Positions 38,659-59,979 of a stretch of DNA of 64,000 nt are shown one piece after another. Positions within the stretch are counted from its first letter, which is position 1, and each line of letters starts with the position of its first letter. Location: NCBI RefSeq assembly GCF_016924755.1, contig NZ_JAFFJX010000002.1:744001-808000 (forward strand), read 5' to 3'. The position numbers were made by a program, and so were the translations under genes. The notes beneath the pieces are model-generated. The model worked only from the letters and a program-made list of their open reading frames with translations, did no database searches and was not told the DNA's origin. This stretch comes from Longitalea arenae (GTDB lineage Bacteria; Bacteroidota; Bacteroidia; Chitinophagales; Chitinophagaceae).

Positions 38659-39243
38659 ATGAAGAATCCGGGACATCACATTATTGCCGGTTTTCAGCAG
38701 GGAAGCAAAGAAGCCTTTGCTGCCGTATATAATTTGCATTATAACCGCTTATATGGCTTTGTAAAAAAGCTGATCGATGACCGCGAAGAAGCAAAAGATA
38801 TCACGGCCGAAACATTTGTAAAACTGTGGAAGCTGCACGCCAATTTCGCTACGCAGGAAAATATCAAAGCCTTCTTATACATTACCGCGCGCAATGCCTG
38901 TATGGATTATCTAAGATACCGCCAACGCCAAACAGCCAACAGGCAGGAATTGGGTTATGTTTTGGTGCAACAGGAAGAACAAATGCCTGCAATCAATGAT
39001 GAAATCAAAGCAGCGGTGCTGAAACAGATCCACCAGGAAATTGAGCATCTTCCCACACAATGCAAACGCATTTTTAAAATGGCCTGGCTCGAAGGTAAGA
39101 AGAACGCCGCCATTGCTATAGAATTAGCGCTCACCGAACAAACCATACGCAATCAAAAAGCCCGCGCTGTAAAGATCTTAAGGCTGGCCCTCGCCAACTA
39201 TAATATGGAATTATTGGTGTTGGTTATTTTATGTATGGTGTAG
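38659..39243 (+). CDS. ECF RNA polymerase sigma factor
   Basis: The 194-aa protein has region 2 (FAAVYNLHYNRLYGFVKKLI; DITAETFVKLW; FLYITARNACMDYLRYRQRQ, each within about 25-105) and region 4 (about 130-180, AIAIELALTEQTIRNQKARA). It ends in a hydrophobic stretch, ELLVLVILCMV. It should control the FecR-SusC-SusD genes downstream, but unlike the other two loci its FecR gene is not adjacent: 951 bp with a decayed repeat lie between. Confidence 0.93.
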   Translation: MKNPGHHIIAGFQQGSKEAFAAVYNLHYNRLYGFVKKLIDDREEAKDITAETFVKLWKLHANFATQENIKAFLYITARNACMDYLRYRQRQTANRQELGYVLVQQEEQMPAINDEIKAAVLKQIHQEIEHLPTQCKRIFKMAWLEGKKNAAIAIELALTEQTIRNQKARAVKILRLALANYNMELLVLVILCMV

Positions 39244-40194: not shown

Positions 40195-41478
40195 ATGATC
40201 GTAGTAGTTAAAAGGATCGCATCCCTTATTATTAAACAATGGCGGGGTGAATTGACCGTAGCAGAAAGCATAGAGCTGGAGCAATGGGCCAGCCAGCATG
40301 CCGCTAACCGCGAGCTGTTACAGCAGTTGACAACCGATGAAACCCTGCGCCGGGAGTTGATCACGTACTATGAAGGAGAAGAGGACCGCGAAGCTGTATG
40401 GCAAAAGATCGAAGAGGCTACCCGGGAAAACACGCCCGTATATGTTATGCCTGTACAACCATCCTGCAAGTACAGATACCTGGCCGCTGCAGTTACCGTA
40501 GCAGCCTTGTTCACTGCCGTTGGCTATTTCTGGTTCCAGGGCAGATCCAAACCAGGCACTCCAGCACCTGTAGCGCGGACTACCATTAACGATGTACTGC
40601 CGGGAGGTAATAAAGCCATCCTTCAACTAAGCGATGGAAAGACCATTGTGCTCGACAATGCACAAAACGGATTGTTAGCGCAGCAAGGAAGTTCCAATAT
40701 TATAAAGCAGAACGACGGTGAGCTTATATACGATCGCGGGGATGGAAACAGCGGTAAGCCATTCGCCACTGACCATTCACCATTGACCTATAATACACTC
40801 GCCACACCTGCAGGCGGACAATTTCAACTGAAATTACCCGATGGCACAAGGGTATGGTTGAATGCAGCATCGTCGATCACTTATCCCACTGCTTTTAATG
40901 GCCATGAGCGCAGCGTGACCATTACCGGTGAAGGCTATTTTGAGGTAGCCAAAGACGCCCGCAGGCCATTTAAGGTAACAATAGCTAAAAATAATGGAAC
41001 GCAAAAAACGTCAGAAGTGGAGGTATTAGGTACCCATTTTAATATCAATGCCTATGATGATGAGGCGGCTGTGAAAACCACCTTGCTTGAAGGAAAAGTA
41101 AAGGTGGTACATGGTGACTGGTCAGTGGTCAATGGAAAAAAGATGGTGGCTCCTGCAGCCTCAGCTATTCTTACGCCAGGTGAACAGGCACAGATCAGTC
41201 ATGAAGGGCTATTGACCGTAAAGAACCATGCAGATCTGGAAGAAGTGGTAGCCTGGAAAAACGGCGAGTTCCTGTTCCAGCATGCAGATATCGGAACCCT
41301 GATGCGGCAGGTAGCCCGTTGGTATGATATAGAAGTGGAATATCCGAAGGGAAAACCCAAAGATAAATTCAGTGGAAAGATTGGCCGGAATGTGAACCTG
41401 AGTCAGCTGTTGGAGATCTTGAAATATTCCGAAGTCAGGTTTGAACTGAAAGGCCGTACGTTAATCGTGCAAAACTGA
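40195..41478 (+). CDS. FecR-family anti-sigma factor
   Basis: The 427-aa protein has a cytoplasmic N-terminus (1-92), a membrane span (about 95-115), a FecR domain (about 200-310, with TPAGGQFQLKLPDGTRVWLN and GEGYFEVAKD) and a C-terminal DUF4974-like domain (about 350-425). It should regulate the sigma factor at 38659 and receive the signal from the SusC STN domain at 41595. Two short segments, near 40771-40788 and 41117-41140, carry ACCATTGAC-like microrepeats in frame; the protein tolerates them between conserved blocks. Confidence 0.94.
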   Translation: MIVVVKRIASLIIKQWRGELTVAESIELEQWASQHAANRELLQQLTTDETLRRELITYYEGEEDREAVWQKIEEATRENTPVYVMPVQPSCKYRYLAAAVTVAALFTAVGYFWFQGRSKPGTPAPVARTTINDVLPGGNKAILQLSDGKTIVLDNAQNGLLAQQGSSNIIKQNDGELIYDRGDGNSGKPFATDHSPLTYNTLATPAGGQFQLKLPDGTRVWLNAASSITYPTAFNGHERSVTITGEGYFEVAKDARRPFKVTIAKNNGTQKTSEVEVLGTHFNINAYDDEAAVKTTLLEGKVKVVHGDWSVVNGKKMVAPAASAILTPGEQAQISHEGLLTVKNHADLEEVVAWKNGEFLFQHADIGTLMRQVARWYDIEVEYPKGKPKDKFSGKIGRNVNLSQLLEILKYSEVRFELKGRTLIVQN

Positions 41479-41523: not shown

Positions 41524-41594
41524 TGTTTGGTTGGGTCATTTCTAAATAAAACTGTTGAGAACATTTCTATTTATCAAACCTAAAACGCAAATGT

Positions 41595-44500
41595 ATGAAA
41601 TTACGGACCTGGTGCATCCGTAGCGGTCAGATTTTGACCAAAACTGTATTGGTATGTACAGGATTGCTGATTTTTGTAACGCTCTTTCATCCGGCAACGG
41701 CCCAGGCTGAAGACGACCGGGGCGGAATCACGATCAGGCAGCAGAATGTGCCGATCCAGAAGGTCTTTCACACCATTGAGAAGCAAAGCGGTTACCGCTT
41801 TTTTTACAATGAAACCCTGCTCCAGGGGGCGGTAAATGTAACCCTTAACCTGCAGCATGTAAGTTTACAAGTAGCCCTGGAAGCCTGTTTCCGCAACCAG
41901 CCGCTGAGTTATGCGATCGTCGACAAAACGATCATTGTGAAAAGGAGGCCCGGGCAGCCGTCCGCTGCACCAGTTACTGCTGCTGTCTCCACATCAAGAC
42001 CCCGCAAGATCATCGCGGTTCGCGGAAAAGTCACCAGCAACAATTTGCCAGTAGCCGGCGCGAGTATTGTGATCAAAGGCACCGACAATGGCGCCAGCAC
42101 CGACAAAGACGGCATATTTACCTTGCCCGAAGTGGAAGAAGATGCCACGCTGGTAGTGAGCAGCGTGAGCCATTCAGCCCGGGAAGTGCGGTTAAACGGG
42201 CAAAGTTTTATCAGCATCGATCTGTCGCAAAGAACAGATGACCTGGATGAGGCGGTGGTAGTGGCGTATAATACGACGACGCAGAGACGGAATGTAGGAG
42301 CGGTGACGGTGGTAAAAGGAGAGCAGATCACTAATTTACCCCATCTTTCTTTTGACAAATCACTTCAAGGCCTGGTGCCAGGGTTATTGGTAACAAGCGG
42401 TACCGGACAACCAGGTGGCGGTGTAAGTAATTTTGTGTTAAGGGGTGTGGCAACTAGCGCCAACCCGGAAAATGGTTCTGTTGTGAGAAACCCATTAATT
42501 GTTATAGATGGCGTTCCTGTTTCTCAGGAAACTTCCCAAATGTATATTTCAAATGCTACCACCGCAATCAATAATCCTTTGGCGCAGTTGAATCCGACAG
42601 ATATCGAGAGTATAACCGTATTGAAAGATGCGGCTGCTATCGCACTTTATGGCGCCAATTCCAGTAACGGAGTAATTATGGTGACAACCAAAAAAGGTAA
42701 ACCCGGGAAAACCAGATTCAATATTCGCCATCAGACCGATATTGCCGCCCCAACCCAATTGCAAGACATGCTTAATCAGGACGAATACCTGGAACTTGTA
42801 CACGAGACGTTGGCAAATACAAATTCATACTATCAAAATCCCCAAAAGGTGATTGATACTTTGAAAAAGTTATTTCCTACAATGGCAGACGGAAGCTTTT
42901 ATGCACAGCCTGATTGGTATGATGCCTTGTATAAAAATAATGCTACTACAATATCTAATGATCTTTCAATTTCAGGCGGTAATGAAAAGACTACTTTTTA
43001 TCTAAACTTTGAATACACGAAACAAGATGGAGTAGTAAAAAACACCGGTTTTGATAGAAAATCAATTAGATTGAATCTTGAACATAGACCTCAACATTGG
43101 TTAAAATTCGGTTTAAATACTACTGTTTCCCATACAAAGCAGGATTATGGCGCAAGTACTGCGGGGGGTAATGACGGGAAAATGGAAAATATGTTTATTT
43201 CAAGTTTATCCCCTTTAATACCTATTTATCTTGAAAATGGTGATTATAATTTTAATTTTCAACAAGGGGTTCTTGCAGAAAACACCGTAAACCCTGTAGC
43301 CGCTGCGAAATATAATACCAATCAGAATACTGCTTTTCGAGGCTTAACCAATGTATTTGGAGAAATAAATTTATTAAAGTATCTAAGTTTCCGCACCAAT
43401 GTAGGATTTGATTTTGCACTTACCGAAGCGAAAGAAAAAGCGGATCCAAGACTTCGTGACCCAGCCATCAGAAATACAGGGGGCAGAGTTGAAGAAAGAG
43501 ATACTCGTAGGGCCAATATAATTTCCACAAATATTTTACAGTTTAATAAACAATTTGGTTCGAAACACCGGCTAGGTCTTTTGGCAGGTCAGGAGGCCCG
43601 GATTTTAAATCAAAAAATTCTGGGAGTGGCGGTCACCGGGTTGTCCTCACCGTATTATGATCAAATCACTAGTCCCGGCGCAACAGTTTTCAGTCAGGCA
43701 GGATATACACTTAAAGAGACATTGTTATCTTATTTTGGCCAGCTAAATTATGATTACGAGAATAAATATCTTCTTACCAGTACCGTCAGAAGAGACGGAT
43801 CGTCCCGATTTGGAGAAGATAAGCGATTTGGTACTTATTGGAGTACCGGAGTAGGTTGGGTCATAAGTGCCGAACCTTTTATGAACGCTGCCTCACGCTG
43901 GATGAATTATTTAAAAGTGAGAGGAAGCATCGGGGCAGCGGGCAACGCTGGTGCAATTGACCGTTTTACACCTTATGACCCAATTACGCCGGGAACGTAT
44001 TCTGGCAACATTAGTGTTAGACCAGCTGGTTCGGTAGCAGGCAATGCTGATGTGAAATGGGAAAATACTTTTTCATGGGACGCTGGATTAGAACTTCGCA
44101 TATTAAACGAAAGACTTTCGTTTACAGCCGATATATACCAAAGAACCACTGATAACCTGATTTATTCTTTACCACTTTCCCGGAATACAGGTTACCAAAG
44201 TATTCTCGGTAATGTGGGTGCCATGAGAAATCGCGGTGTTGAATTGTCTTTCTCCGCCAATATTATTCGTAAGAAAAGTTTCTTTTGGCGCTTGGATGGC
44301 AACTGGAGTACCAATCAAAATAAGTTGATCAAAGCAAATAATTCTACTGTACAGTCCCAGTTGAGCGTAGCCTATAATCAGGAAGGCAAAAGTTTTAATT
44401 CGTTTTACCTCCGTCGTTGGGCCGGGGTAGATCCGTTGACAGGAGCTGCTTTATACATGGATTCTTTAGGGAATGCCAGTCCTGATTATAATGCAGCAAA

Positions 44501-45014
44501 ACCGGAATTTGTAGGCAAAGCACAGCCTGATGGTTTTGGCGCAATCACTAATACCTTTAACTATATGGGGTTGGAATTGTCAGCAATTCTTTATTATCAA
44601 TATGGCTATAATATTCTAAACAATAATAGTATTAGAACTGTCAACGATGGTTATCTTCCCTTGGTAAATGAAACCAAAGATGCATTGAATCGCTGGCAAA
44701 AACCAGGTGATGAATCTCCAAATCCAAAAAGAACAGTAAATAATATCTCAGGTTCCAACCGATCTACCCGAACCCTGTACAAAGGAGATCACATTCGCTT
44801 ACAGAATATTATATTAAGCTATCAGGTTCCTGCAAAATTGATTCAACTATTGCATTTAAGTAATGCGAAAGTCTACTTGCAAGGAAACAATTTAGCACTT
44901 TGGACAACGGCCAATACTTATGGCGATCCCTCATCAGCAAACGTATATGGTGTAATTAGCTATAGTTACCCAATTGCGCGTACGTGGTCTATTGGCATTA
45001 ATGCTGGATTCTAA
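41595..45014 (+). CDS. SusC/RagA-family TonB-dependent transporter with STN domain; mosaic composition
   Basis: The 1139-aa protein has a signal peptide (to about 38), an STN domain (about 42-115), a CarboxypepD_reg domain (about 140-215), and a plug with ITVLKDAAAIALYGANSSNG; a beta-barrel runs to the end. It should import a ligand with the SusD encoded 30 bp downstream and signal to FecR. The first ~750 bp are GC-rich like the flanking genome; from about 42,345 onward the gene is strongly AT-rich. The plug and barrel therefore look foreign, joined to a native signalling N-terminus. The reading frame is intact across the junction. Confidence 0.95.
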   Translation: MKLRTWCIRSGQILTKTVLVCTGLLIFVTLFHPATAQAEDDRGGITIRQQNVPIQKVFHTIEKQSGYRFFYNETLLQGAVNVTLNLQHVSLQVALEACFRNQPLSYAIVDKTIIVKRRPGQPSAAPVTAAVSTSRPRKIIAVRGKVTSNNLPVAGASIVIKGTDNGASTDKDGIFTLPEVEEDATLVVSSVSHSAREVRLNGQSFISIDLSQRTDDLDEAVVVAYNTTTQRRNVGAVTVVKGEQITNLPHLSFDKSLQGLVPGLLVTSGTGQPGGGVSNFVLRGVATSANPENGSVVRNPLIVIDGVPVSQETSQMYISNATTAINNPLAQLNPTDIESITVLKDAAAIALYGANSSNGVIMVTTKKGKPGKTRFNIRHQTDIAAPTQLQDMLNQDEYLELVHETLANTNSYYQNPQKVIDTLKKLFPTMADGSFYAQPDWYDALYKNNATTISNDLSISGGNEKTTFYLNFEYTKQDGVVKNTGFDRKSIRLNLEHRPQHWLKFGLNTTVSHTKQDYGASTAGGNDGKMENMFISSLSPLIPIYLENGDYNFNFQQGVLAENTVNPVAAAKYNTNQNTAFRGLTNVFGEINLLKYLSFRTNVGFDFALTEAKEKADPRLRDPAIRNTGGRVEERDTRRANIISTNILQFNKQFGSKHRLGLLAGQEARILNQKILGVAVTGLSSPYYDQITSPGATVFSQAGYTLKETLLSYFGQLNYDYENKYLLTSTVRRDGSSRFGEDKRFGTYWSTGVGWVISAEPFMNAASRWMNYLKVRGSIGAAGNAGAIDRFTPYDPITPGTYSGNISVRPAGSVAGNADVKWENTFSWDAGLELRILNERLSFTADIYQRTTDNLIYSLPLSRNTGYQSILGNVGAMRNRGVELSFSANIIRKKSFFWRLDGNWSTNQNKLIKANNSTVQSQLSVAYNQEGKSFNSFYLRRWAGVDPLTGAALYMDSLGNASPDYNAAKPEFVGKAQPDGFGAITNTFNYMGLELSAILYYQYGYNILNNNSIRTVNDGYLPLVNETKDALNRWQKPGDESPNPKRTVNNISGSNRSTRTLYKGDHIRLQNIILSYQVPAKLIQLLHLSNAKVYLQGNNLALWTTANTYGDPSSANVYGVISYSYPIARTWSIGINAGF

Positions 45015-45044
45015 TAATGACTTGCTTTTATTAAACATAATAAG

Positions 45045-46448
45045 ATGAAACGATATACATACTTTTTTATCTGTTCAGTTATTTTGACAGGAAGTGCCTG
45101 TAAAAAGGATTTTTTAGAGGTAATCGATAAGACCAAAATACTTAGGCAAGGTTATGTGGTCGATTTGCCTACTACAGAGCATTATATGAATGGAATATAC
45201 GGGGAACTGGCCACTTCTGTTGCTGGATTATTCAACATGCCTATACCTGAGATAACGGCCGATAATCTAAAGTTATTTGGCTCCGTTTCTCTTAGTCAAC
45301 TTGGAAATTTTTATAACTGGACTCAAACGACAACGCTTGATGAAAGCGGGGGAGCATGGTATGACAATTACCGTATTATCAGAGCCTGCAATTTTGTAAT
45401 TGAAAAATCAGATGAATATAAAGACCAGGACCTTGCCAAGGCAGCTATGCTGAAAGGACAAGCTCTTTGCATAAGAGCATGGATGCATTTCTCTCTGGTA
45501 AATTTGTTCGCCCAGTCTTTTAATTATTCTCAGGATGCCTCTCATTTGGGCGTTCCATATATATATACTTCAGATATTGAAGAACGTGTGACAAGGCAAA
45601 CAGTCGCGGAAGTATATGAAGCCATGATTGCCGACCTAAAAGAAGCATTGCAATTATTGCCTGCCACTGGAGTAACCAATAAACAATATATTAATTATCA
45701 GGCAGGCAAGGCACTGCTTGCAAGGATTTATCTTTTTAAATCGGATTATAACATGGCCAAATATTTGGCAGGGCAGGTCTTACAAGATGTGCCCATGATG
45801 ATTGCTGATTATCCGGCCAAGTTATATACGTCACAGGAGTCGGAAGCCTTGTTTCAAATCCCTCCGGGAAGTTCTCAGACAGCAAATTACACCACAGATT
45901 TTTATGGGAGATATTGCAGACGTACTATCCGTTTCACTGCTTCCAATGACATAGTCCAGTTATATAGGGCATATCCCAGCGATAAAAGAAACAGCTGGAT
46001 TTTAGATTCTACTATAGGTAAAGTAGTTACTAAATTCCCTAAAGGTGTAACGGGCACTCATACAATGGCTGAAGCTGATTTTTATCAAACATTCTTTCGT
46101 TCAACGGAAATGGCACTGACAGCTGCCGAGGCTTATGCCATGTTGGGCAATGATGATAGTGCTCGTTATTTTGCAAACGAAATCCGGGTCCGGGCTGGGA
46201 TTCCTGTTATTGCTCCGACAATAATGGGAGCTGCATTAATTGATTCAATTAAAATAGAAAGACGTAAAGAGATGGCCTTTGAAGGAATTCGAATGTTTGA
46301 TCTGCTTCGATGGAAACAAAACGTAAACCGTAAGGATGCACTTACACCGGCAGCACAACTTTTACCTTATCCCAGTGATAAATCGATATCACCAATTCCT
46401 TTCGCCGATGTTCAGATAGCCGGCTTGTCACAAAATCCCGGGTATTAA
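45045..46448 (+). CDS. SusD/RagB-family outer-membrane lipoprotein
   Basis: The 467-aa protein has a lipoprotein signal (ILTGSAC, lipid Cys near 19) and the SusD/RagB pattern: KGQALCIRAWMHFSLVNLF, and the C-terminal KIERRKEMAFEGIRMFDLLRW, LPYPSDKSISPIP and NPGY end. It is the SusC partner, 30 bp downstream. It shares the AT-rich codon use of the SusC barrel and the following genes, so probably arrived with them. Confidence 0.95.
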   Translation: MKRYTYFFICSVILTGSACKKDFLEVIDKTKILRQGYVVDLPTTEHYMNGIYGELATSVAGLFNMPIPEITADNLKLFGSVSLSQLGNFYNWTQTTTLDESGGAWYDNYRIIRACNFVIEKSDEYKDQDLAKAAMLKGQALCIRAWMHFSLVNLFAQSFNYSQDASHLGVPYIYTSDIEERVTRQTVAEVYEAMIADLKEALQLLPATGVTNKQYINYQAGKALLARIYLFKSDYNMAKYLAGQVLQDVPMMIADYPAKLYTSQESEALFQIPPGSSQTANYTTDFYGRYCRRTIRFTASNDIVQLYRAYPSDKRNSWILDSTIGKVVTKFPKGVTGTHTMAEADFYQTFFRSTEMALTAAEAYAMLGNDDSARYFANEIRVRAGIPVIAPTIMGAALIDSIKIERRKEMAFEGIRMFDLLRWKQNVNRKDALTPAAQLLPYPSDKSISPIPFADVQIAGLSQNPGY

Positions 46449-46497
46449 GCAATCATGCAAAGTCGGCAATATTATTAACTCATATAAACTTATAAGA

Positions 46498-49110
46498 ATG
46501 AAAAGATCGATGTGCACAATGATCTTGTGTTTATTCTGTGTTTTCATGATGGGGCAGACTGGCGATAGAACCATTTATTTTAATTTAATCATTGATTCAA
46601 CCCCTGTTTCGAAACCACTTCCGGAATTAATTACCATGAGTTATGTACCTTATGAAATAAGGCCATGGCATCAAAGAATAACAAAGAAAGATCCAAATAG
46701 GAATATTGAATGGATAATTCCGTCAAACGAACCCATTAATTTATATCTGTCTTTACCCATAGCCAATTCATTTAAAAGTTGGGTGCTTGAACCTGGCGAT
46801 AGTATTATAGTAAATTACAAAGATGAAAGAGTACGTTTTTCGGGAAAAGGAGCCGATAAGCTCATCCTGAATAACGAAATTGCCACCCTTAAAGAAGCGC
46901 TGCAAAAACCTTCAAATCCTACATTTTATGTTACAAACTCTGTACAGGATTATATAGAATGGAGGGAATACTTAAATCGTGAATTGGCTTTAATTGAATT
47001 ATTAATTGAATCCAGTAAAGAAAAATTAAATTCGTTTTCATTTAACTACCTGAAATTGACCGCCATTGAGGACTATGAAGATCGGCTAAGACATAAATTT
47101 ATGAACCTCCGGCTGGAAGAACTTCATGTTGATAAAAAAACACTTTGCAAAATATTTGACGAGGACTTTTTTACCCCTAAGCTCCTTTGGTTCAGATCAC
47201 AACCAACTGCATGGATAGGTGAGCATGTAATAACTGGATTTAATAGATTATTTCTGGCCCGACAAAACAATTTTCCTCCTGATCATAGAGGCGCATTGGT
47301 TAGTAAAGAAGAGTTTGCACTGGCAATGTTTAATAACGGCAAAAATATCTATAAAGGAGATGCGCTGGAATACGGCTTGATGGAATTTTTAACCAGCTAT
47401 GTTATAAAAGAGTTTGGCTTTTCTCCAGTCACCGAAACTTTATTACACAAATATTATAGTGATCCGGAGAGAAAGCCTGAGTTCCAGGCTTATGTCAAAA
47501 ACTTTGAGCAAAATACCCGGATGGTTACAAAAAATGAAAGAGTGCCTGATTTTACTGTCTATGATGCTCAGTTAAAACCAATTACCAGGTCAGGTTTAAT
47601 GGGAAAAGTAGTTTTAATGCATTTTTGGAAAGCCGGAGATCCTGCCAGCGCAAGGTTAGCTAATTCCCTAAAAAAAGTTGAAACCTTATTTAGGGACAAT
47701 CCAAATGTAACTTTTCTTCATATTTCTGCAGACAAAGATCGGTCAGCCTGGCTCAAGAATTTAAGCAAATCAACTTATACGACAGGAATGGGGATCAATG
47801 CTTATGTTGATCAAAAAGATGGCCAGGATAATATACTCGACTCCTTTAACATAAAAGAATTTCCCGCAGTAATTCTTGTCAACTATAATGGAAAGGTTAT
47901 TTCAAATTCACTAGTAGACTCTTTTTCTGTAAATGATAAGTTAATTGGTTTGATCAGAAAACATGCATTAAAAGCTGCGGTAGAGGACTGGCAGGGAGGT
48001 TCAGATGGTCCATATATATTACATGAAACGAGTGGTAGTAAATCATATACATTTGAAAAAGGGGTTATGGCTGTAAAGGCTATGCAGGAAGAAAATAATA
48101 AGCCTGTTTTGGTTGCTACTGACGAGCCGGGTAAAAAGTTTACGGTAAAACTAAAAGTCAATACATTCATTGAGCCATCCGTATTTCCACGGCCAGAAAA
48201 GCTCATTGCCTTTTCGGATATTGAAGGCAATTTTGATGCGTTACGAATGTTGCTGCAAAATAATAAAGTAATTGATGCACAATTTAATTGGACTTTTGGT
48301 AAAGGACACCTGGTATTTGCCGGGGATATGTTTGACAGGGGTGAACAAGTTACAGAATGTTTATGGCTGTTGTATTCCCTGGAAGAAAAAGCGAGGAAGG
48401 AAGGTGGATATGTTCATTTTATTTTAGGAAATCATGAACTAATGAACTTGGATAAAAACCATAAGTATGCAAGAAGTAAGTATAAAGAAAATGCAACAAA
48501 AATGGGTAAGACATTAGCAGAGATTTATGGCAATAACAGTGAATTGGGAAAATGGCTTCGCACAAAAAACATTGTTGAAAAGATTGGAGACATACTTTTT
48601 ATGCATGCGGGACTTAGTCAGGAGGTAAATGATCTGGGATTGACAATTGAACAAATTAATGAATTAGCAAGGCCTTATTATGACAATGCCAGTGCAGCAA
48701 AGCAATCTTCCGACCGGCGCCTTGCTTTACTTTTTGATAATGAATTGTCTCCTTTTTGGTACAGGAACTATTATAAAGAAAAACCGGTAGTATTCGGTCT
48801 TGCAAGAAATAAGCAGGTTGCAGAATATAGAACGCCTGTTAATGTCATTGATGAAATATTGACGCATTATCAGGTTAATAAAATTGTTACGGGCCATACT
48901 ATTTTTGAAGGAGTTAAGGAAGGGGATATAGGGAAAAATCTGACTGTTCACTATAATGGCAAAGTTATAAACACAGATACCAAACATGCCAGCGGACATA
49001 CTGAGGCCTTGTTAATTGTAGGAGATACATATTATAAAGTAAATAAAATGGGGGAAAGGCAAGAGTTATTTAGTTCAATTCCTGTCAGAAATAATATCGT
49101 TTTAAAATAA
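46498..49110 (+). CDS. Exported fusion: thioredoxin-like domain without active cysteines plus PPP-like metallophosphatase
   Basis: The 870-aa protein has a signal peptide (about 1-20) and an N-terminal region (about 20-340) of unknown fold that resembles the leader part of TlpA-like proteins. A thioredoxin-like domain (about 349-495) has VPDFTVYD and then F376-W-K-A-G-D-P-A-S384 where FWxxWCxxC is expected; both cysteines are replaced (Asp, Ser). From 568 on is a calcineurin-like/PPP phosphatase: SDIEGN (D574, E576 in place of the usual His), GDMFDRG, GNHE (644-647), FMHAG and GHT. The phosphatase half is paralogous to the gene at 51469. It follows SusD by 49 bp and is closed by a terminator. 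Confidence 0.85.
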   Translation: MKRSMCTMILCLFCVFMMGQTGDRTIYFNLIIDSTPVSKPLPELITMSYVPYEIRPWHQRITKKDPNRNIEWIIPSNEPINLYLSLPIANSFKSWVLEPGDSIIVNYKDERVRFSGKGADKLILNNEIATLKEALQKPSNPTFYVTNSVQDYIEWREYLNRELALIELLIESSKEKLNSFSFNYLKLTAIEDYEDRLRHKFMNLRLEELHVDKKTLCKIFDEDFFTPKLLWFRSQPTAWIGEHVITGFNRLFLARQNNFPPDHRGALVSKEEFALAMFNNGKNIYKGDALEYGLMEFLTSYVIKEFGFSPVTETLLHKYYSDPERKPEFQAYVKNFEQNTRMVTKNERVPDFTVYDAQLKPITRSGLMGKVVLMHFWKAGDPASARLANSLKKVETLFRDNPNVTFLHISADKDRSAWLKNLSKSTYTTGMGINAYVDQKDGQDNILDSFNIKEFPAVILVNYNGKVISNSLVDSFSVNDKLIGLIRKHALKAAVEDWQGGSDGPYILHETSGSKSYTFEKGVMAVKAMQEENNKPVLVATDEPGKKFTVKLKVNTFIEPSVFPRPEKLIAFSDIEGNFDALRMLLQNNKVIDAQFNWTFGKGHLVFAGDMFDRGEQVTECLWLLYSLEEKARKEGGYVHFILGNHELMNLDKNHKYARSKYKENATKMGKTLAEIYGNNSELGKWLRTKNIVEKIGDILFMHAGLSQEVNDLGLTIEQINELARPYYDNASAAKQSSDRRLALLFDNELSPFWYRNYYKEKPVVFGLARNKQVAEYRTPVNVIDEILTHYQVNKIVTGHTIFEGVKEGDIGKNLTVHYNGKVINTDTKHASGHTEALLIVGDTYYKVNKMGERQELFSSIPVRNNIVLK

Positions 49111-49131
49111 TAGTACATAAAAAACATGGAG

Positions 49132-49158
49132 CCCCACCAGATCAAGGTGGGGTTTTTT
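49132..49158 (+). terminator. Rho-independent terminator after the fusion gene
   Basis: CCCCACC (49132-49138) pairs with GGTGGGG (49146-49152), followed by six T. It ends the FecR-SusC-SusD-fusion transcript and sets the small peptide gene apart. Confidence 0.85.
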
Positions 49159-49164
49159 ATTTTT

Positions 49165-49189
49165 ATGGGTCTTGTGTAGCAAGACTCAT
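49165..49189 (+). other. Stem-loop in the leader of the small peptide gene
   Basis: ATGGGTCTTG (49165-49174) pairs with CAAGACTCAT (49180-49189), ten bp with one G-T pair and a five-base loop. No T-run follows. It lies between the upstream terminator and the palindrome at 49208; it may be an operator or, if transcribed, a 5' mRNA structure. Confidence 0.5.
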
Positions 49190-49207
49190 GCAAAATAATT
49201 TTACAAC

Positions 49208-49221
49208 GCAATGGCCATTGC
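49208..49221. promoter_or_regulatory. 14-bp perfect palindrome, candidate operator
   Basis: GCAATGGCCATTGC is its own reverse complement and lies 27 bp before the ATG at 49249. A perfect even-length palindrome in this AT-rich leader is unlikely to be chance and fits a dimeric repressor site over the transcription start. Confidence 0.5.
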
Positions 49222-49248
49222 AGATTCCATTAATTTTTAAACTTTAAA

Positions 49249-49542
49249 ATGAATATTATGAAACTGAACAATTTGAGGAAATTCTCAATACTGGGATTAG
49301 CATTGCTCGCCACTTCCGCAGTTGTAGCAGCTTTTGTTCCCAGCTCAAAATCCACTGATTCAACAGCATTAAACGGCCCAGGAAGCTTAACGCAGGCAGG
49401 AACCGATAATACTGCAACATGTGCAACCGTACAAAGCAATCCCAATTGCAATAATACCGTTACAGAAGGAGATGCCGGTTCTTCCAGCGCTGGTGGTACT
49501 ACGTCTGCTGATCTGAATCGCAACACTACATTGGCTGAGTAA
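49249..49542 (+). CDS. Small secreted peptide with two cysteines (NVEALA-like context)
   Basis: The 97-aa product has a short basic start, a hydrophobic core (about 13-29), and a mature Ser/Thr/Asn/Gly-rich tail with two cysteines, C58 and C67. There is no enzyme-like motif. Bacteroidota encode several families of such short exported peptides (for example NVEALA and DUF6520), often near propeller lipoproteins, SusC/SusD and redox proteins; this one lacks the NVEALA ending, so I do not assign it. It is bracketed by two terminators and has a stem-loop and palindrome upstream, suggesting separately controlled, strong expression. A second ATG at 49258 is possible. Confidence 0.75.
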   Translation: MNIMKLNNLRKFSILGLALLATSAVVAAFVPSSKSTDSTALNGPGSLTQAGTDNTATCATVQSNPNCNNTVTEGDAGSSSAGGTTSADLNRNTTLAE

Positions 49543-49577
49543 TCGTTAATGAATTATTCTTTCATAATGTAAAGATT

Positions 49578-49609
49578 GTAATAGAACAGTTTAAAAACTG
49601 TTCTATTAC
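49578..49609 (+). terminator. Hairpin terminator after the small peptide gene
   Basis: A 15-bp perfect inverted repeat (49578-49592 with 49595-49609; GTAATAGAACAGTTT and its complement) forms a long AT-rich stem 36 bp after the peptide stop. Only a short T-run follows, but the stem is long. Confidence 0.7.
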
Positions 49610-49686
49610 TTTCAAATTCATACTTGCAATCGGCAAAAGCAATACCTGAACAATCAACGTGTTTCATCCCAATTAGTGTTAATAAT

Positions 49687-50871
49687 ATGAAGAAGAATAT
49701 AATCTATATCACAGGTATCGTATTATTTTTCTCTTACACATCATGTAAGGAGAATGACGCTCCAATTCAGGTTGCAACCTATAATTATCAACAACCTCAA
49801 TATAACAACGTAAGTTTGGAGATAGGGTCAGATACTATGCATTTTGCACTGAGTGACACGAGTTATAATAAAGTGGGGATAATCAATCTGTTTACCGACA
49901 AGGGAGTTGAATATATTTCGATTTTTGATACCCGCTCTGAAGCTATTAACATTTATCAGTTGAATACACAACAATTGGTGAAAAGAATTATACCAGGTAA
50001 ATATCTTTCAGGCAAAGGGTCATACAAACCCACTGTTTTTTGTAAAAATTTTGATAGCATTTTTGTAAGAAATAACAGAAAGACATTGTCAATGCTCGAC
50101 AGTAGTGGACATATAAAAAAGACCATTAATTATCCGGATGTATCTTCTCACGTAATAGCATTTAAAACAAACAGGCCGTTAGTGGTGAAAAACGGTATTG
50201 TTTTCGCAGGCATTCGCCCTTCTGGTACGCTGACAACCCTTAAAAAATTAAAGCAATGGAAAACAATGAACGTGATTGATTTTAATAATAGTAAAATAGA
50301 TAAATTGTATTTTTTGCCCGAATCATACCGAAATAATTTATACGGCTATCATTTTATGAATTATAGTTACTGTTTTAATGATAGGGGAAATTTTGTATTT
50401 AGCTTTCCTGCAGATTCAAGCCTTTATGAAACAAATCTAACCGATTTCCATATAGCTCATTATGGAAAAAGCAAGTTTCAACAAGGACCAATAAGTCCTG
50501 TTAATGAGGAGGATTTGGACAGGGGAGATGGCAGCAAGCAATATCACATCAGAGATGCTTATGGAGCTGTTTATTTTGATCCGTTCCATAAAATATATTT
50601 GCGATACTTCAGGCAAAAGACCAGCGAGTCAGGCTATGACAATAATAAAAGAGAGGTTAAAGAGAGTGTTCTGATATTTAATAATAATCTCCAGATCATT
50701 GGTGAATCACCAATTCCGGAGTCTGTCAGTTTTAGCAATCTTTTTATTACAGCCAATGGACGGATCTTTGCGCAGGTAGACAAAAAAGATGAGAATGCGT
50801 TGCATTTTGTTCAGATAAAATTAAATTATAACGACCTCCCTGATGCTTCCATTCAAATAACCCAAAAATGA
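49687..50871 (+). CDS. DUF4221-like beta-propeller lipoprotein
   Basis: The start is the ATG at 49687 (394 aa); the frame opens earlier with a TTG in the terminator region. A lipoprotein signal ends in SYTSC (lipid Cys 20). The remainder is a chain of beta-strand repeats with no catalytic motif, and ends in FAQVDKKDENALHFVQIKL, similar in style to DUF4221/6-bladed propeller proteins of Bacteroidota. It is likely surface-exposed and a binding or sensing partner of the peptide upstream (inference from order). Its stop overlaps the next start as ATGA. Confidence 0.75.
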   Translation: MKKNIIYITGIVLFFSYTSCKENDAPIQVATYNYQQPQYNNVSLEIGSDTMHFALSDTSYNKVGIINLFTDKGVEYISIFDTRSEAINIYQLNTQQLVKRIIPGKYLSGKGSYKPTVFCKNFDSIFVRNNRKTLSMLDSSGHIKKTINYPDVSSHVIAFKTNRPLVVKNGIVFAGIRPSGTLTTLKKLKQWKTMNVIDFNNSKIDKLYFLPESYRNNLYGYHFMNYSYCFNDRGNFVFSFPADSSLYETNLTDFHIAHYGKSKFQQGPISPVNEEDLDRGDGSKQYHIRDAYGAVYFDPFHKIYLRYFRQKTSESGYDNNKREVKESVLIFNNNLQIIGESPIPESVSFSNLFITANGRIFAQVDKKDENALHFVQIKLNYNDLPDASIQITQK

Positions 50872-51452
50872 ATTTAAAAAGTGTGAATAGATTACAATAT
50901 TATACTAATTGTATATTAGGATACTTGCTCATAGCATGCTTTTCAAATTGTGACAATTCAGGTAGTAAGATCAATAGTTCATCCTTGATTACCGATCCTG
51001 GGATGCAGGACTCAATATTCAAGACTTTGGTAAGTTTTACTGATCACTCGATACCAGAAAATGAATTAAGCGACTCGTTAGCATTCTTGGTGTTACCAGT
51101 GGAGGCTAGCTGCCCAAGTTGCCGCAAAAGAACCATTGACAGTATATTAAAAAATATAAATAACCTTATTCAGAACCATTACATAATTATTTCAGCATCG
51201 GGAGGATATAAAACTATAAATTCCTATTTCCGTGAGCAGAATGGGAAACTTCCCGAGATGAAAAGTAATTTGTTTTTGGATACAACCCATCTGGCTTTGA
51301 AAAAAGAATTATTTGAGAACAATACAGTAATATACTATACTTCAAACCGTAAAGCTTTTAAAAAGGTAAGTAGCATTCCGGCAACAATACGAGAAGATCT
51401 GAGAGAGTTTTTTTCAGGAACCAGAAGCGATAAGCATATAACATCAAAATAA
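50868..51452 (+). CDS. Lipoprotein with CxxC thioredoxin-like motif
   Basis: The 194-aa protein overlaps the preceding gene by four bases (ATGA), so the two are translationally coupled. The N-terminus is a lipoprotein-type signal with Cys24 (LIAC) or Cys28 as the lipid site. Residues 73-90, FLVLPVEASCPSCRKRTI, place C82-x-x-C85 after a hydrophobic strand, as in thioredoxin-like folds. It could form or reduce a disulphide in an exported partner such as the two-cysteine peptide at 49249. The family is not recognised further. Confidence 0.7.
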   Translation: MNLKSVNRLQYYTNCILGYLLIACFSNCDNSGSKINSSSLITDPGMQDSIFKTLVSFTDHSIPENELSDSLAFLVLPVEASCPSCRKRTIDSILKNINNLIQNHYIIISASGGYKTINSYFREQNGKLPEMKSNLFLDTTHLALKKELFENNTVIYYTSNRKAFKKVSSIPATIREDLREFFSGTRSDKHITSK

Positions 51453-51468
51453 AGTCGGGAATTAAATA

Positions 51469-52392
51469 ATGGAAATGAACATGAATGTAAATCCTAAAAT
51501 AGCATTAAGTATTCCCAATGCAAGTAAACCGGGGAGGTATTTTTCACTTAGATTAAAAGAAGGAATAATGAATGAACCTTCTGAATATGCATTTTCCGGA
51601 AAAATACTTGCAGTATCAGATATTGAGGGGAATTTCCAGGCGTTCTGCAAATTGCTAACAAGAAACAGAATAATTAATAAATATTTTGAATGGATCTTTG
51701 AAGACGGGCATTTAGTGATAAACGGTGATTGTTTTGACAGAGGCGATCAGGTCACAGAATGTCTTTGGTTGATTTATGCGCTGGAAGAACGGGCTATAAA
51801 GGAAGGAGGTCATGTGCATTTTATTCTTGGCAATCATGAAATCATGAACTTAAATGGAGATTGGCGTTATATTCATCCCAAATATGCTGAGCAAACAAAA
51901 TCCCGAAAGCCCCCTGCAGCCATTTATGACGGGAACGGTGAGTTGTGGCGATGGTTGTGCACGAAAAACATTATTGAAAAAATTGGCGATATCTTATTTG
52001 TCCATGGTGGTATTTCCAAAGAACTGCTTAAATTAAACCTTACAATAAAAGATATAAATTTTAAATCAAGGCCTTTCTACGCTCACGCTAATCAACAATT
52101 TGTTGATCCTGTACTAAACATAGTGTTCAATAGCGACCAATCTCCTTTCTGGTATCGCGGTTATTACCAGGACACAGTTACAGAAGAACAAATTGATGAT
52201 GCCTTGAGATATTTTGGAGTGAAAACAATCGTTACGGGCCATACAACAATAGATAGGATCACCTCATTCTTTAATGGGAAAGTTATAAATATTGACACTG
52301 ATCATGCAGGAGGAAATTCACAAGCACTATTAATTAAGAATGATAGATTTTATAGAATAACGAATGATGGAAAAAGAGAAAGAATCAAGTGA
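51469..52392 (+). CDS. PPP-like metallophosphatase (calcineurin-like phosphoesterase), cytoplasmic
   Basis: The 307-aa protein has no signal peptide. Motifs: SDIEGN (D51, E53), NGDCFDRGDQVTE, GNHE (121-124), FVHGG, and GHTT. It is paralogous to residues 568-870 of the fusion at 46498, including the DIEGN variant with Glu in place of the usual metal-binding His. PPP-type enzymes remove phosphate from Ser/Thr or small molecules; the target is unknown. It lies 16 bp after the CxxC lipoprotein, as the third gene of the 49687 operon. The pair means the same activity may be placed on both sides of the inner membrane. Confidence 0.9.
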   Translation: MEMNMNVNPKIALSIPNASKPGRYFSLRLKEGIMNEPSEYAFSGKILAVSDIEGNFQAFCKLLTRNRIINKYFEWIFEDGHLVINGDCFDRGDQVTECLWLIYALEERAIKEGGHVHFILGNHEIMNLNGDWRYIHPKYAEQTKSRKPPAAIYDGNGELWRWLCTKNIIEKIGDILFVHGGISKELLKLNLTIKDINFKSRPFYAHANQQFVDPVLNIVFNSDQSPFWYRGYYQDTVTEEQIDDALRYFGVKTIVTGHTTIDRITSFFNGKVINIDTDHAGGNSQALLIKNDRFYRITNDGKRERIK

Positions 52393-52497
52393 ATATGGAA
52401 AAACTATTCACATTCACTTTGAAGTCAAACTTTCCCTGTCCATCCTATTATAAGAGATTAGGGGTAGGGAAAATTAAGCCAGCTTTTGTTTGAATTC

Positions 52498-52761
52498 TTA
52501 AGCAGTTATACGCTGGTTACTTAATTCGTCCTTTTTTAGGAAGCGAATGGTAAATGATCCTTCCTCATCATAATAATATGATTGCCGGTATTTGCAAAAC
52601 TTTATTGGTGCTCCATGAACTTTCATTATGTTTAGATATACATAAACAGTTGCCCGGGATAAACCTAACCTTTCACCTAATTTCTTAGCTGTTCCTGTAC
52701 CTTTAATTTTAATAAGGTGATCTAAAAGTTCAATACGCTTTAATGTTTCATCATAATACAT
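52498..52761 (-). CDS. Small HTH-domain protein (HTH_11/DeoR-like)
   Basis: The 87-aa protein has a helix-turn-helix (about 12-48, GTGTAKKLGERLGLSRATVYVYLNIMK in two overlapping pieces) followed by a short strand-rich C-terminus (IKFCKYRQSYYYDEEGSFTIRF). It is clearly a paralogue of the 92-aa protein at 56891 along its whole length. It is probably a local DNA-binding regulator. It lies at the end of the AT-rich island, convergent with the phosphatase gene. Confidence 0.85.
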   Translation of the reverse strand: MYYDETLKRIELLDHLIKIKGTGTAKKLGERLGLSRATVYVYLNIMKVHGAPIKFCKYRQSYYYDEEGSFTIRFLKKDELSNQRITA

Positions 52762-53003
52762 GTGGATAAGATTTTGATCTGAAATATATAAAGTGTTGAT
52801 TTATGTAAAAATATTAGTTCAATTTCAGGCGCTATTGATTATAAAGCGTTTGTTCATACATACAAGCAGTACTATAATGGTTTAAAATTACAAGCCATTA
52901 CCGCAGTTATTCTGCAGCCCAATATTATCTTTTATAACAACAAAGGTTGAATGTCAACTATTGCAAGGTTTTTATTCGATAAATTAAATGGTGTTATAAA
53001 AAC

Positions 53004-53031
53004 AATGCCCCGCGGATGCTGGCGGGGCATT
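53004..53031 (-). terminator. Strong rho-independent terminator
   Basis: AATGCCCCGC (53004-53013) pairs perfectly with GCGGGGCATT (53022-53031) around an eight-base loop. On the minus strand the stem is followed by TGTTTTTAT, a good T-run, so it most likely ends the leftward 57732-53303 transcript; on the + strand TTTTAT also follows. Confidence 0.8.
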
Positions 53032-53220
53032 TTATAATACTAATACTCTCTTTTGAATGATATAGGCTGAAGGGCTAACAGGCAATCTGAGCTATTGTAA
53101 AAGGCGCTTTAATACCAATGGGAATCGTCTCAAATCATTTTACCGGCAATTGCCTATGCACTGCTAATGACAATAGATTTCTATGGTTATGCCAAAATCG
53201 GCATTGACCGACCAACCAAA

Positions 53221-53277
53221 CCCGGGTCTTTCCGAGATCCGGGCAATAAATGTGTACAAAACGTCGTAAGACGTCTT
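53221..53277. other. Hairpin and palindrome pair downstream of the lysine-tailed HTH gene
   Basis: CCCGGGTCT (53221-53229) pairs with AGATCCGGG (53235-53243) with one mismatch-type pair. ACGTC-GTAA-GACGT (53261-53274) forms a second stem with a GNRA-type loop, and AAGACGTCTT (53268-53277) is a perfect palindrome. They lie 26-82 bp beyond the stop at 53303, so they are probably part of its 3' untranslated region. Confidence 0.45.
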
Positions 53278-53302
53278 CCAACAATAAAAACCGTCTTATC
53301 CG

Positions 53303-53638
53303 TCAGTTAAGTACCTCTGCGCTAAGATTCTGCTTTACCTCTTCTTCTTCAAGGTGAACATACTGGGCGAATTCTCTGATCGACACATAGTCTTTCTTTT
53401 TACGGCCCAATTCTTCGCGGATCGTTTGTAATAACCGCTGGGCGGTACGTATGTTAATGCCAAGGATCTTTGTGATATCATTGGTATGAATCACCAGCCG
53501 TTGGGTGGCTCTTCTGGCTGAGGCGGGCAGTTTTTTGCCAGTCTTTTTCTTTTTAACGGCGGCATTCTTTTTTGTAGCTGTTGCCTTCTTTTTTGCGGGA
53601 ACGATCTTTTTTGCAGCAATGCGTTTCTTCTTTGCCAT
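53303..53638 (-). CDS. Lysine-rich-tailed HTH protein
   Basis: The first ATG is at 53638 (111 aa); an upstream TTG three codons earlier is less likely. Residues 1-45 are Lys/Ala-rich, like a histone H1 or HU tail. Residues 50-105 form a domain with ITKILGINIRTAQRLLQTIRE and YVSIREFAQYVHLEEEEV, which looks like an HTH found in many small Bacteroidota proteins. It probably binds DNA, with the tail adding non-specific affinity. It is last in the leftward block, 171 bp after the unknown gene at 53809. Confidence 0.78.
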   Translation of the reverse strand: MAKKKRIAAKKIVPAKKKATATKKNAAVKKKKTGKKLPASARRATQRLVIHTNDITKILGINIRTAQRLLQTIREELGRKKKDYVSIREFAQYVHLEEEEVKQNLSAEVLN

Positions 53639-53808
53639 GCTGTTCAATACATTTAATGGTTAAGCCAATAGTGGCAGTTGGCTTACTAATCGGAGCATCG
53701 TGTATAAAACTTCCAAAGTATCTGTTGGCGGAAGTGCTACTTTCTGGCCGTTAAATTAAAAGGATTTTTGAAATCACACAAATTTATTACATAAAGCGAG
53801 CCGCATTT

Positions 53809-54603: not shown

Positions 54604-54641
54604 AATATAGAATAGGTTTAATTAAAACTAAAAAAGCACTA

Positions 54642-56789: not shown

Positions 56790-56890
56790 ACATATGACCT
56801 TTTGATACTTGTATTACTTACCTATTAAAATTCGGTATGCCCACTGCAATCAAACTGCAGTGACCTATTTTAGCTTACCACGAACACCCA

Positions 56891-57169: not shown

Positions 57170-57184
57170 ATCGGGTGAGTTTGT

Positions 57185-57247: not shown

Positions 57248-57288
57248 ATGGCCTTGGTGAGAAGGTAATTAACAGTGTAGTGGAATGA

Positions 57289-57732
57289 TCAGGTGAAAGC
57301 AGGCAGGTTGGCAGAGGTTCGTCGCTTTTTTCGCTCCAGGTAAATACCCCAGGCTGATAATGCCACGAAGCCGCTGTTGAATACAATATGCGCACGCCAC
57401 GACATTTCTTCCAGTACGCCTCCGCAGGAACAGGGGATCTCACTGCCGAAGACCAGCATAGCTGCAATATATAAGGTAAATAGCGACATCAGAATGAACG
57501 ACGCGCACAGGCCCGCTAGCCGTAAACGGGGTATAGCCAGACATACAGCGATCAGCAGCTCACTGGCAGGCACCCCCCAGGTCAGCAAAGCGGCAAAGGG
57601 TGCAATAAAGGGCGATTCTGAAAGTCCGAATTGGAAATTGTAATAATCAAGCAATTTGGCGGCAGCAGCGTACACAAAGAGGATACTAATTAAAGTGCAT
57701 ATGATCCCCAAAGCCACATTACTCTTTTTCAT
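57289..57732 (-). CDS. MauE/DoxX-like membrane protein with CxC motif
   Basis: The 147-aa protein has four membrane spans and the motif PCSCGGVLEEMSW (C101, C103) in the loop before the last span, as in MauE/DoxX redox-associated proteins of Bacteroidota. These are thought to pass electrons to periplasmic thioredoxin-like partners or to help disulphide formation in small exported proteins. No partner is adjacent, but the CxxC lipoprotein and cysteine peptide lie 6-8 kb away. The gene precedes the HTH-kinase operon by 119 bp. Confidence 0.88.
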   Translation of the reverse strand: MKKSNVALGIICTLISILFVYAAAAKLLDYYNFQFGLSESPFIAPFAALLTWGVPASELLIAVCLAIPRLRLAGLCASFILMSLFTLYIAAMLVFGSEIPCSCGGVLEEMSWRAHIVFNSGFVALSAWGIYLERKKRRTSANLPAFT

Positions 57733-58840: not shown

Positions 58841-58916
58841 CCCACCTTTATGGCTTAACATTATGGTAATATACAAGCCATGGTACTATTTGCCGGCCGT
58901 GTTATTACTATGATGT

Positions 58917-59921: not shown

Positions 59922-59979
59922 TCGCATAACGCACAAACTCTATATAAACATTAAAGCCATTCAGAACAAGCATCGTGAC

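Follow-up and report, generated by a model that had tools for sequence, protein, structure and literature searches.

The DNA considered here, referred to as the window, is a stretch of 64,000 nucleotides from Longitalea arenae (Chitinophagaceae; contig NZ_JAFFJX010000002.1, positions 744,001 to 808,000), and the analysis centres on a SusC gene within it whose base composition changes abruptly inside an uninterrupted reading frame. The gene lies behind genes for an extracytoplasmic-function (ECF) sigma factor and a FecR anti-sigma protein. It is followed by genes for SusD, a TlpA-phosphatase fusion (Tlp), a short peptide, a DUF4221 protein, a thioredoxin-like protein and a stand-alone phosphatase (PP307), beyond which a kinase/LanC-like protein (LanKC) is encoded on the opposite strand (Table 1). 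The STN domain of SusC, together with the upstream FecR and ECF sigma genes recognised by Pfam, places the locus in the regulated subtype of SusC/SusD systems. Comparison with related genomes indicates that positions 42,272–53,234 very probably form an exchangeable specificity cassette of about 11 kb.

Table 1. Features of the SusC locus in the window.
Feature	Position	Strand	Basis
ECF-type sigma factor, scaffold	38659..39243	+	Pfam Sigma70_r2, r4_2
FecR anti-sigma protein, scaffold	40195..41478	+	Pfam FecR, FecR_C
SusC residues 1-235, fixed part: signal region, STN, CarbopepD_reg_2, TonB box (by eye)	41595..42300	+	Pfam
5' exchange boundary, directly after the TonB box DLDEAVVVAYNTTT	42272..42335	+	Synonymous change point between L. 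arenae and L. luteola
SusC plug and barrel, putatively exchanged	42301..45014	+	TIGR04056, 743.9 bits (cut-off 368.25)
SusD lipoprotein, putatively exchanged	45045..46448	+	Pfam SusD-like_3, SusD_RagB
TlpA-like thioredoxin/PPP-type phosphatase fusion, putatively exchanged	46498..49110	+	Pfam Thioredoxin_8, Metallophos; signal-like N-terminus by eye
Short peptide, proposed ligand	49249..49542	+	Conserved Sec-like leader (by eye), hypervariable Ser/Thr-rich tail, two Cys
DUF4221 protein	49684..50871	+	Pfam PF13970; lipoprotein-like start by eye
Thioredoxin-like protein, invariant CPxC	50868..51452	+	Alignment of 16; lipoprotein-like start by eye
Stand-alone PPP-type phosphatase (PP307)	51469..52392	+	Pfam Metallophos; no signal peptide by eye
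Small helix-turn-helix (HTH) protein within the AT-rich block	52498..52761	-	Pfam HTH_11; GC3 0.24
3' exchange boundary	53234..53320	.	blastn homology resumes
Ser/Thr kinase fused to LanC-like domain, outside the block, proposed peptide kinase	54642..56789	-	Pfam Pkinase, LANC_like
MauE-like membrane protein, neighbour outside the block	57289..57732	-	Pfam MauE; 73-79% in N. vici, N. yeongjuensis and genome G005

The four counts of G+C per 60 nucleotides on which the original prediction rested, 37 (41701-41760), 14 (43201-43260), 17 (50881-50940) and 32 (55021-55080), proved exact on recounting, and the sharp drop that they were taken to mark inside the SusC gene was confirmed by segmentation and by the G+C content at third codon positions (GC3), the frame being open across the step. 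The GC content is 0.452 over positions 1–42,300, 0.372 over 42,301–53,233 and 0.452 over 53,234–64,000. Along the region the best single low-GC segment, 42,820–53,200, stands out with a log-likelihood gain of 129, whereas shuffling the 500-bp blocks 100 times never gave more than 41. Composition within genes was measured by GC3 and four-fold degenerate sites rather than by the codon adaptation index. In susC, GC3 falls from 0.60 in codons 1–235 to 0.34 in the remaining codons, a step of 0.26. As a control, 38 SusC genes with an STN domain were picked by the authors among 103 matches in the same genome; three have a step above 0.1, namely this gene, C18:43384 (0.27) and C3:161148 (0.15); the other 35 range from -0.11 to +0.04 (mean -0.034, s.d. 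0.038), which places the present gene at z 7.7.

Ten genomes of the genus were compared, one per species, including the 7.28-Mb genome of L. arenae itself (G000); those cited by name are Longitalea luteola (G007), Niastella vici (G001), N. caeni (G003), N. populi (G006) and N. yeongjuensis (G009). A full-length SusC relative in a like locus was found in six of the nine other genomes, and thus in seven of ten, and the same seven encode a full-length LanKC; one of the three genomes without it is 61% complete. The order sigma-fecR-susC-susD-TlpA/phosphatase-peptide-DUF4221-thioredoxin-like-phosphatase, with the kinase/LanC-like gene facing, is broadly shared. In N. populi the segment from peptide to phosphatase is inverted, the N. 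caeni locus houses three peptides and two phosphatases, and in L. luteola a contig break falls within the locus. All seven genomes have AT-rich cassettes, and at several loci of other genera the AT-richness of the kinase/LanC-like gene equals that of the cassette. AT-richness therefore appears to be a lasting trait of the cassette and no proof of a single recent arrival, and low GC as a sign of recent foreign origin was rejected as an explanation. The acquired island of the original prediction stands in so far as exchange is supported; the composition marks no single recent acquisition, and exchange appears to be recurrent and to cross genera. Relatives carrying the same full-length gene with the same internal step had been named as evidence against an acquisition. 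Six full-length homologues indeed show lower GC3 after the N-terminus (by only about 0.05 in N. vici), so that in form this objection is half borne out, but their barrels are different alleles, 47–53% identical to the L. arenae barrel after residue 371, rather than products of close descent.

Stronger evidence comes from synonymous sites, compared as four-fold identity, that is, the proportion of third-base matches where both proteins share the same four-fold degenerate residue. In the first of the two closest genome pairs, L. arenae–L. luteola, this identity outside the block is 0.60 for PAP2, 0.61 for EEP, 0.65 for h153, 0.67 for sigma, 0.54 for FecR, 0.63 for SusC residues 1–240 and 0.59 for LanKC. 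Inside the block it is 0.23 for the plug, 0.31 for the barrel, 0.23 for SusD, 0.20 for Tlp residues 1–540, 0.35 for the Tlp phosphatase half, 0.18 for DUF4221, 0.33 for the thioredoxin-like protein and 0.25 for PP307, where chance is 0.26–0.29. In the plug, synonymous sites are thus at chance despite 69% protein identity, with flanks at about 0.6. The second pair, G005–N. yeongjuensis, gives 0.45–0.77 outside the block and 0.17–0.38 inside. As background, 464 kb of the L. arenae genome were compared with 417 kb of that of L. luteola, yielding 132 reciprocal best pairs, of which 126 were long enough; their median protein identity is 0.87 and their median four-fold identity 0.54. Values below 0.40 occur in 15 of the 126 pairs: five are cassette genes, three encode proteins 72–88% identical yet lie above chance, and the remaining seven, at 24–41% identity, look like paralogue pairings. 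The ordinary SusC/SusD loci of the window, at 21.8–26.5 and 60–63.9 kb, show no drop (SusC 0.50 and 0.55), and the drop therefore belongs to this block and not to SusC genes at large.

The same sites locate the ends of the block. Searched from codon 40 onwards, the synonymous change point in SusC falls at residue 236 (226–247) for L. arenae–L. luteola, at 228 (183–255) for G005–N. yeongjuensis and at 226 (226–235) when all ten core pairs are pooled. The break, originally placed near 42,345, does lie within susC, and synonymous identity in the closest pair moves it slightly upstream, to 42,272–42,335 (best 42,303). At this boundary lies the TonB box DLDEAVVVAYNTTT, which is nearly unchanged even in N. 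caeni and N. populi. On the 3' side GC recovers near 53.2 kb, close to the proposed end at 52,900; nucleotide homology resumes 334 bp farther on, at 53,234 in L. luteola, at 53,249 in N. vici and at about 53,320 in N. yeongjuensis and G005. Replacement would have proceeded by homologous recombination, with the conserved TonB box and plug start as the usual 5' crossover.

Trees point in the same direction. Quick LG+G4 trees of 15–20 rows each were built, and approximately unbiased (AU) tests were used to judge a five-species host clade consisting of L. arenae, L. luteola, N. vici, G005 and N. yeongjuensis; the sigma factor was compared by identity instead. The host clade is kept by FecR (support 100), by SusC residues 1–215 (100) and by LanKC (94). 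It is rejected by SusC from residue 241 to the end (AU p 1.5e-86, 247 log units), by SusD (4.8e-5, 98 log units), by Tlp residues 1–540 (1.2e-42) and by the Tlp phosphatase half (0.0025). G005 groups with a Pseudobacter metagenome-assembled genome in SusC, SusD and both Tlp halves (support 95–100), and N. yeongjuensis with Chitinophaga filiformis in SusC (99), SusD (90) and Tlp 1–540 (99), the SusC group also including Pseudoflavitalea. The fixed part is correspondingly well conserved within the clade: relative to L. arenae, the other four members are 80–89% identical in the sigma factor and 77–88% in SusC residues 1–240, and the four-fold identity of this N-terminus is 0.45–0.63 to L. luteola, N. 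vici and G005. Taken together, chance-level synonymous sites and trees that reject the host clade argue that the block has been exchanged repeatedly between genera. Sequence comparison shows repeated replacement of the plug/barrel, SusD and Tlp by distant relatives, whereas FecR, the STN/CarbopepD/TonB-box part of SusC and LanKC remained with the host clade. For DUF4221 and the thioredoxin-like protein synonymous identity is lost, but the trees do not prove exchange. This supports the proposal that a native signalling N-terminus, next to sigma and FecR genes that stay fixed, had received a foreign plug, barrel and downstream cargo.

The most telling part of the cassette is the peptide gene, which the original prediction had already listed. 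An open reading frame of 91–112 residues, counted from the leader Met, lies between the TlpA/phosphatase and DUF4221 genes in all seven genus cassettes, in N. populi beside the inverted part. Nine genus peptides share a mean identity of 0.66 in the leader and only 0.23 in the tail; 14 aligned tails contain 27% Ser+Thr and two Cys each, and no Pfam or NCBIfam model matched more than one of the 14 peptides. A leader model built from the nine was applied to 74 phosphatase-bearing loci, and found the peptide in 18 (all 17 with LanKC and one cut at a contig end), whereas the remaining 56 gave no match; five of the 18 belong to genomes that had already contributed to the model. When 294 genomes of the family were searched with LanKC, 22 had matches with E-values of 1e-60 or lower. 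Eight stretches outside the genus were fetched by LanKC alone, three of them already known loci and five new, and all five new ones contain the peptide; stretches with distant kinase-LanC proteins (28–33%) contain it in none of five cases. Across the ten genus genomes the peptide occurs only at this locus, apart from two weak matches (E 0.002–0.004) in G004 and N. yeongjuensis. A locus of Chitinophaga filiformis (L147, 7,699–16,135) contains five peptide genes with differing tails.

If the peptide were recognised by the receptor encoded beside it, tails and receptors might be expected to vary together. Over 23 loci, tail distances correlate with those of the SusC barrel (r 0.30, p 0.0025; 0.31 with LanKC held), SusD (0.25, p 0.011) and Tlp (0.21, p 0.036), and show no association with LanKC (0.07, p 0.27), DUF4221 (0.11) or the thioredoxin-like protein (-0.02). 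The locus whose peptide is nearest is also the one whose SusC is nearest in 11 of 23 cases; the same holds for SusD in 10, Tlp in 11, DUF4221 in six, the thioredoxin-like protein in four and LanKC in five. Out of sample, the peptide of a locus from another genus (L266) was first seen to resemble that of N. yeongjuensis, and the two loci then proved mutual best in SusC (0.67), SusD (0.59) and Tlp (0.50), with LanKC at 0.54. Candidate ligand and receptor thus vary together, to a modest degree and independently of the fixed enzyme, the ligand role being assumed.

The two other SusC genes with a GC3 step lie in further loci of this genome, L208 9,252–18,958 (contig G000:C18) and L209/L210 (G000:C3). 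Both stand behind a FecR gene, that on C3 also behind a sigma gene, and precede genes for SusD, a thioredoxin-like protein and an S9 peptidase. Also encoded in the vicinity of the C3 locus are three short peptides with a signal and Cys residues, as well as thioredoxin-like proteins with CPYC and MauE-like proteins. Among 20 genus relatives compared with these loci, eight match by N-terminus (L243, L244, L248; L255-L259), with N-terminal identity of 0.66–0.78 and four-fold identity of 0.36–0.56, and with barrels of 0.48–0.61 whose four-fold sites are at or near chance. The other 12 have similar barrel identity and N-termini of merely 0.36–0.53. The same mosaic at the C18 and C3 loci indicates that the plug-in design is repeated there.

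The enzymes allow a role for the peptide to be sketched. The kinase motifs of LanKC (the Lys, HRD and the metal-binding Asp) are kept in 20 of 20 sequences. The zinc ligands are lost: the first Cys position is occupied by Cys in one of 20, and the Cys-His pair is complete in none, with Cys alone in two and His alone in one. Residues 25–704 match only positions 182–843 of the LanL model, with 260 bits against a cut-off of 650, the lyase domain being missing. These ligands are a class IV feature, and class III cyclases are likewise not known to have them. With no lyase domain and the zinc ligands lost, lanthionine synthesis by LanKC is unsupported; given also an active-looking kinase, phosphorylation of the peptide seems likelier than lanthionine formation. 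The closest solved relative of the Tlp phosphatase half is the cold-active protein-tyrosine-phosphatase 2zbm (E 7.9e-55). The AlphaFold model of the 194-residue thioredoxin-like protein (pLDDT 82.5) was matched by Foldseek to eight structures with E-values of 0.001 or lower, thioredoxins for the most part; the best reaches 1.2e-4 with a TM-score of only 0.38/0.49. The loci L066 (1,501–2,319, in N. vici), L151 and L153 have an extra kinase between the thioredoxin-like protein and the phosphatase, 29–33% identical to the kinase domain of LanKC. Two cassette phosphatases, L051 2,915–3,817 (the second copy in N. caeni) and L054 12,339–13,178 (N. populi), are without several residues conserved in the other rows and are probable pseudo-enzymes kept in the cassette.

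It is tempting to suggest that the peptide would be phosphorylated in the cytoplasm and then exported and processed, kinase and phosphatases setting its phosphorylation and thioredoxin-like proteins its disulfide. SusC/SusD would take up or sense the exported peptide of its own cassette, much as FpvA does with pyoverdine, and binding would signal through the STN domain to FecR and sigma; going by what is known of the family, the SusC N-terminus would keep the control by FecR. As an explanation of the whole, an exchangeable specificity cassette with self-peptide recognition is considered probable. That the self-peptide is the ligand of its cassette's SusC/SusD is suggested by analogy, with somewhat less than even confidence. 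A more speculative proposal is of a lock-and-key arrangement in Chitinophagaceae, in which a self-made, phosphorylated or disulfide-looped peptide and its own SusC/SusD would act on a host-fixed STN-FecR-sigma circuit, with sets traded between genera at the TonB box, at least three loci in this genome, and processing by kinase and phosphatase or by S9 peptidase.

Several observations weigh against this interpretation. Change points are weak in the other eight of the ten core pairs, and that for N. caeni–N. populi falls at residue 101. FecR of N. vici–N. yeongjuensis is also at chance (0.28 vs 0.26), whereas some sites inside the block exceed it, as in the plug of L. arenae–N. vici (0.40, z 2.3), the barrel of N. 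vici–N. yeongjuensis (0.33, z 2.2) and PP307 of L. arenae–G005 (z 2.0); more distant genome pairs give noisier four-fold values. The host clade is not rejected by DUF4221 (AU p 0.11), the thioredoxin-like protein (0.19) or the plug alone (0.16). The sigma factor, FecR and SusC N-terminus of N. caeni and N. populi are of another type (35–41% identical; 36–39% for sigma and 38–40% for SusC residues 1–240), and LanKC of N. caeni groups with L119 and Pseudobacter, so that the scaffold too appears to change. No recent swap has been caught among genomes that represent one species each. The correlation between tail and SusC is modest. The peptide tail of L141 and one of two in L125, both outside the 14-tail alignment, are without Cys. 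Three Pedobacter loci (L126, L129, L140) have SusC (44–50%), SusD and a TlpA-phosphatase of like identity, and neither LanKC nor the leader peptide was found in the stretches examined; the receptor set can therefore exist without this peptide.

These Pedobacter loci, and the wholesale replacement of a surface receptor, would also fit swapping of the cassette as an escape from phages or bacteriocins for which SusC is the receptor, with a peptide that is a bystander or has an unrelated role; bacteriocin pressure has been suggested for FpvA types (PMC2777410). Such escape leaves unexplained both the covariation of tail with SusC/SusD and the presence of the peptide at every kinase-linked locus seen, and is on the whole unlikely. 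It is also rather unlikely that the peptide is an exported bacteriocin or contact signal, with the cassette providing matched uptake or immunity, so that the system serves kin discrimination and not autoinduction. Matched sets across genera and tandem variant peptides (three in N. caeni, five in L147) speak for this; no dedicated killing or immunity gene was recognised among the 15 window proteins scanned, and tail variation is not matched by DUF4221 or the thioredoxin-like protein. Either process could act alongside recognition of a self-made peptide.

Alternatively, no transfer need have occurred, if surface genes evolved fast in place under strong diversifying selection and AT-rich, weakly expressed genes shed synonymous identity quickly. 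The similar gene order and AT-richness in all seven genomes, and the DUF4221, thioredoxin-like and plug trees, are compatible with this. It is made improbable by the chance-level synonymous sites of the plug and by the well-supported groupings across genera (G005 with Pseudobacter, N. yeongjuensis with Chitinophaga filiformis and, by identity, with L266), because rate alone does not move branches. Phase variation inside a single genome by a SusC shufflon or by inversion, as in Bacteroides, would likewise join a fixed N-terminus to alternative barrels, and is highly improbable here: the hinge pattern occurs once in the genome, with up to three mismatches allowed, the next full-length SusC genes are at most 36% identical among the matches listed, and the only 20-nt inverted pair (80%) in 38.5–58 kb lies away from the boundaries. 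DNA inversion was ruled out on the absence of boundary inverted repeats and the unique hinge, and a donor in the same genome on the unique hinge and the low identity of the listed paralogues. An assembly chimera or single recent genomic-island insertion can scarcely be credited, as the arrangement recurs in seven genomes (one a single 9.03-Mb contig), there is no tRNA in the window, which speaks against a tRNA-linked island, and no integrase was found among the 15 proteins of 38.6–57.7 kb scanned; the abrupt GC change would suit it, and a 21-nt direct repeat (90%; 42,965–42,985 and 52,818–52,838), inside the block some 400–650 bp from its ends, may be chance and is given no weight.

Some neighbouring features deserve mention. 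From about 41,524 to 41,693, a stretch made up of the ~71 nt that lead up to susC and the ~33 codons that open the gene, five species have almost the same nucleotide sequence; codons are identical in 227 of 238 comparisons at shared residues, far above the rest of the N-terminus. This stretch is perhaps a promoter or an element of RNA or translation control; no Rfam match at gathering scores was obtained in 38–58 kb, the susC start included. Two small paralogous HTH genes (52,498–52,761 and 56,891–57,169) flank the kinase/LanC-like unit. The outer is 89–93% conserved in N. vici, G005 and N. yeongjuensis; the inner is AT-rich and lies in the variable block, with tblastn counterparts present at the block in N. 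caeni and N. populi and not seen in N. vici, G005 or N. yeongjuensis. Two conserved proteins without a Pfam family (114 and 264 aa) are encoded at 53,306–54,603, between the cassette and the kinase/LanC-like gene, and the larger recurs in several cassette loci.

An exchangeable cassette of this kind would show where SusC genes of these Bacteroidota are cut and joined, after the signalling domain at the TonB box, which lets the circuit of the host outlast a switch in specificity: in these Niastella-group soil bacteria one control circuit would be given new specificities while the flanking signalling parts mostly stay in place. If the proposal is true, a circuit shared by the whole genus is given new keys, comparable to siderovars or pherotypes. 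It also provides a concrete candidate ligand for an orphan class of SusC/SusD adjoining TlpA-like proteins and short exported peptides, and matched pairs such as N. yeongjuensis and L266 allow direct tests of ligand-receptor specificity. In genome annotation, such loci can be flagged cheaply by a step in GC3 and synonymous identity within susC.

No published description of this cassette or peptide was found among the titles and abstract openings listed, and a literature search on NVEALA found no paper. Comparison with known systems is nevertheless instructive. Bacteroides DNA-inversion systems place alternative SusC/SusD behind a fixed start; here, in contrast, no silent copies or boundary inverted repeats were found. 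Pheromone loci of the agr/ComX type carry a variable peptide and a variable receptor between conserved output genes and signal through a histidine kinase, instead of which the present locus has an outer-membrane TonB receptor with FecR and sigma, so that the likeness is one of analogy only. As in class III/IV lanthipeptide clusters, a kinase fused to a LanC-like domain lies near a leader/core-like peptide gene; unlike those synthetases, LanKC has no lyase domain, has lost its zinc ligands and scores below the NCBIfam cut-offs. Class III and IV synthetases are described as mostly actinobacterial (Actinobacteria; PMC7268733), and a SusC-type protein cluster is listed near graspetide loci (PMC8939145).

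A close parallel is RagAB of Porphyromonas gingivalis, whose SusC/SusD alleles are exchanged between strains and species and which has a conserved N-terminal CarbopepD part (PMC11817032; PMC5266723); in the portions of these two sources available, no peptide gene is mentioned. RagA is also the second-best solved relative of the present SusC. Both systems share a SusC/SusD importer, alternative alleles, horizontal exchange and the conserved N-terminal CarbopepD part, and the features of a polymorphic locus of this kind (conserved N-terminal extension, divergent plug/barrel and SusD, horizontal exchange) are found here between species. Unlike RagAB, the L. arenae system includes STN, FecR and sigma, a cassette of ~11 kb with an exported peptide, phosphatases and thioredoxin-like proteins, and probable exchange across genera. 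In Pseudomonas, FpvA signals via FpvR and a sigma factor. A variable self-made ligand, pyoverdine, is there paired with matching TonB receptor types, FpvA having STN, plug and barrel (PMC2777410; PMC11444679); here, by contrast, the ligand would be a ribosomal peptide, the receptor is SusC/SusD and no link to iron is seen. Allelic SusC/SusD exchange with a conserved N-terminus (RagAB) and matched ligand-receptor types (pyoverdine/FpvA) are thus already known, and what is counted as new is the combination of cross-genus exchange, an exported peptide family and an STN/FecR/sigma scaffold, repeated at three loci.

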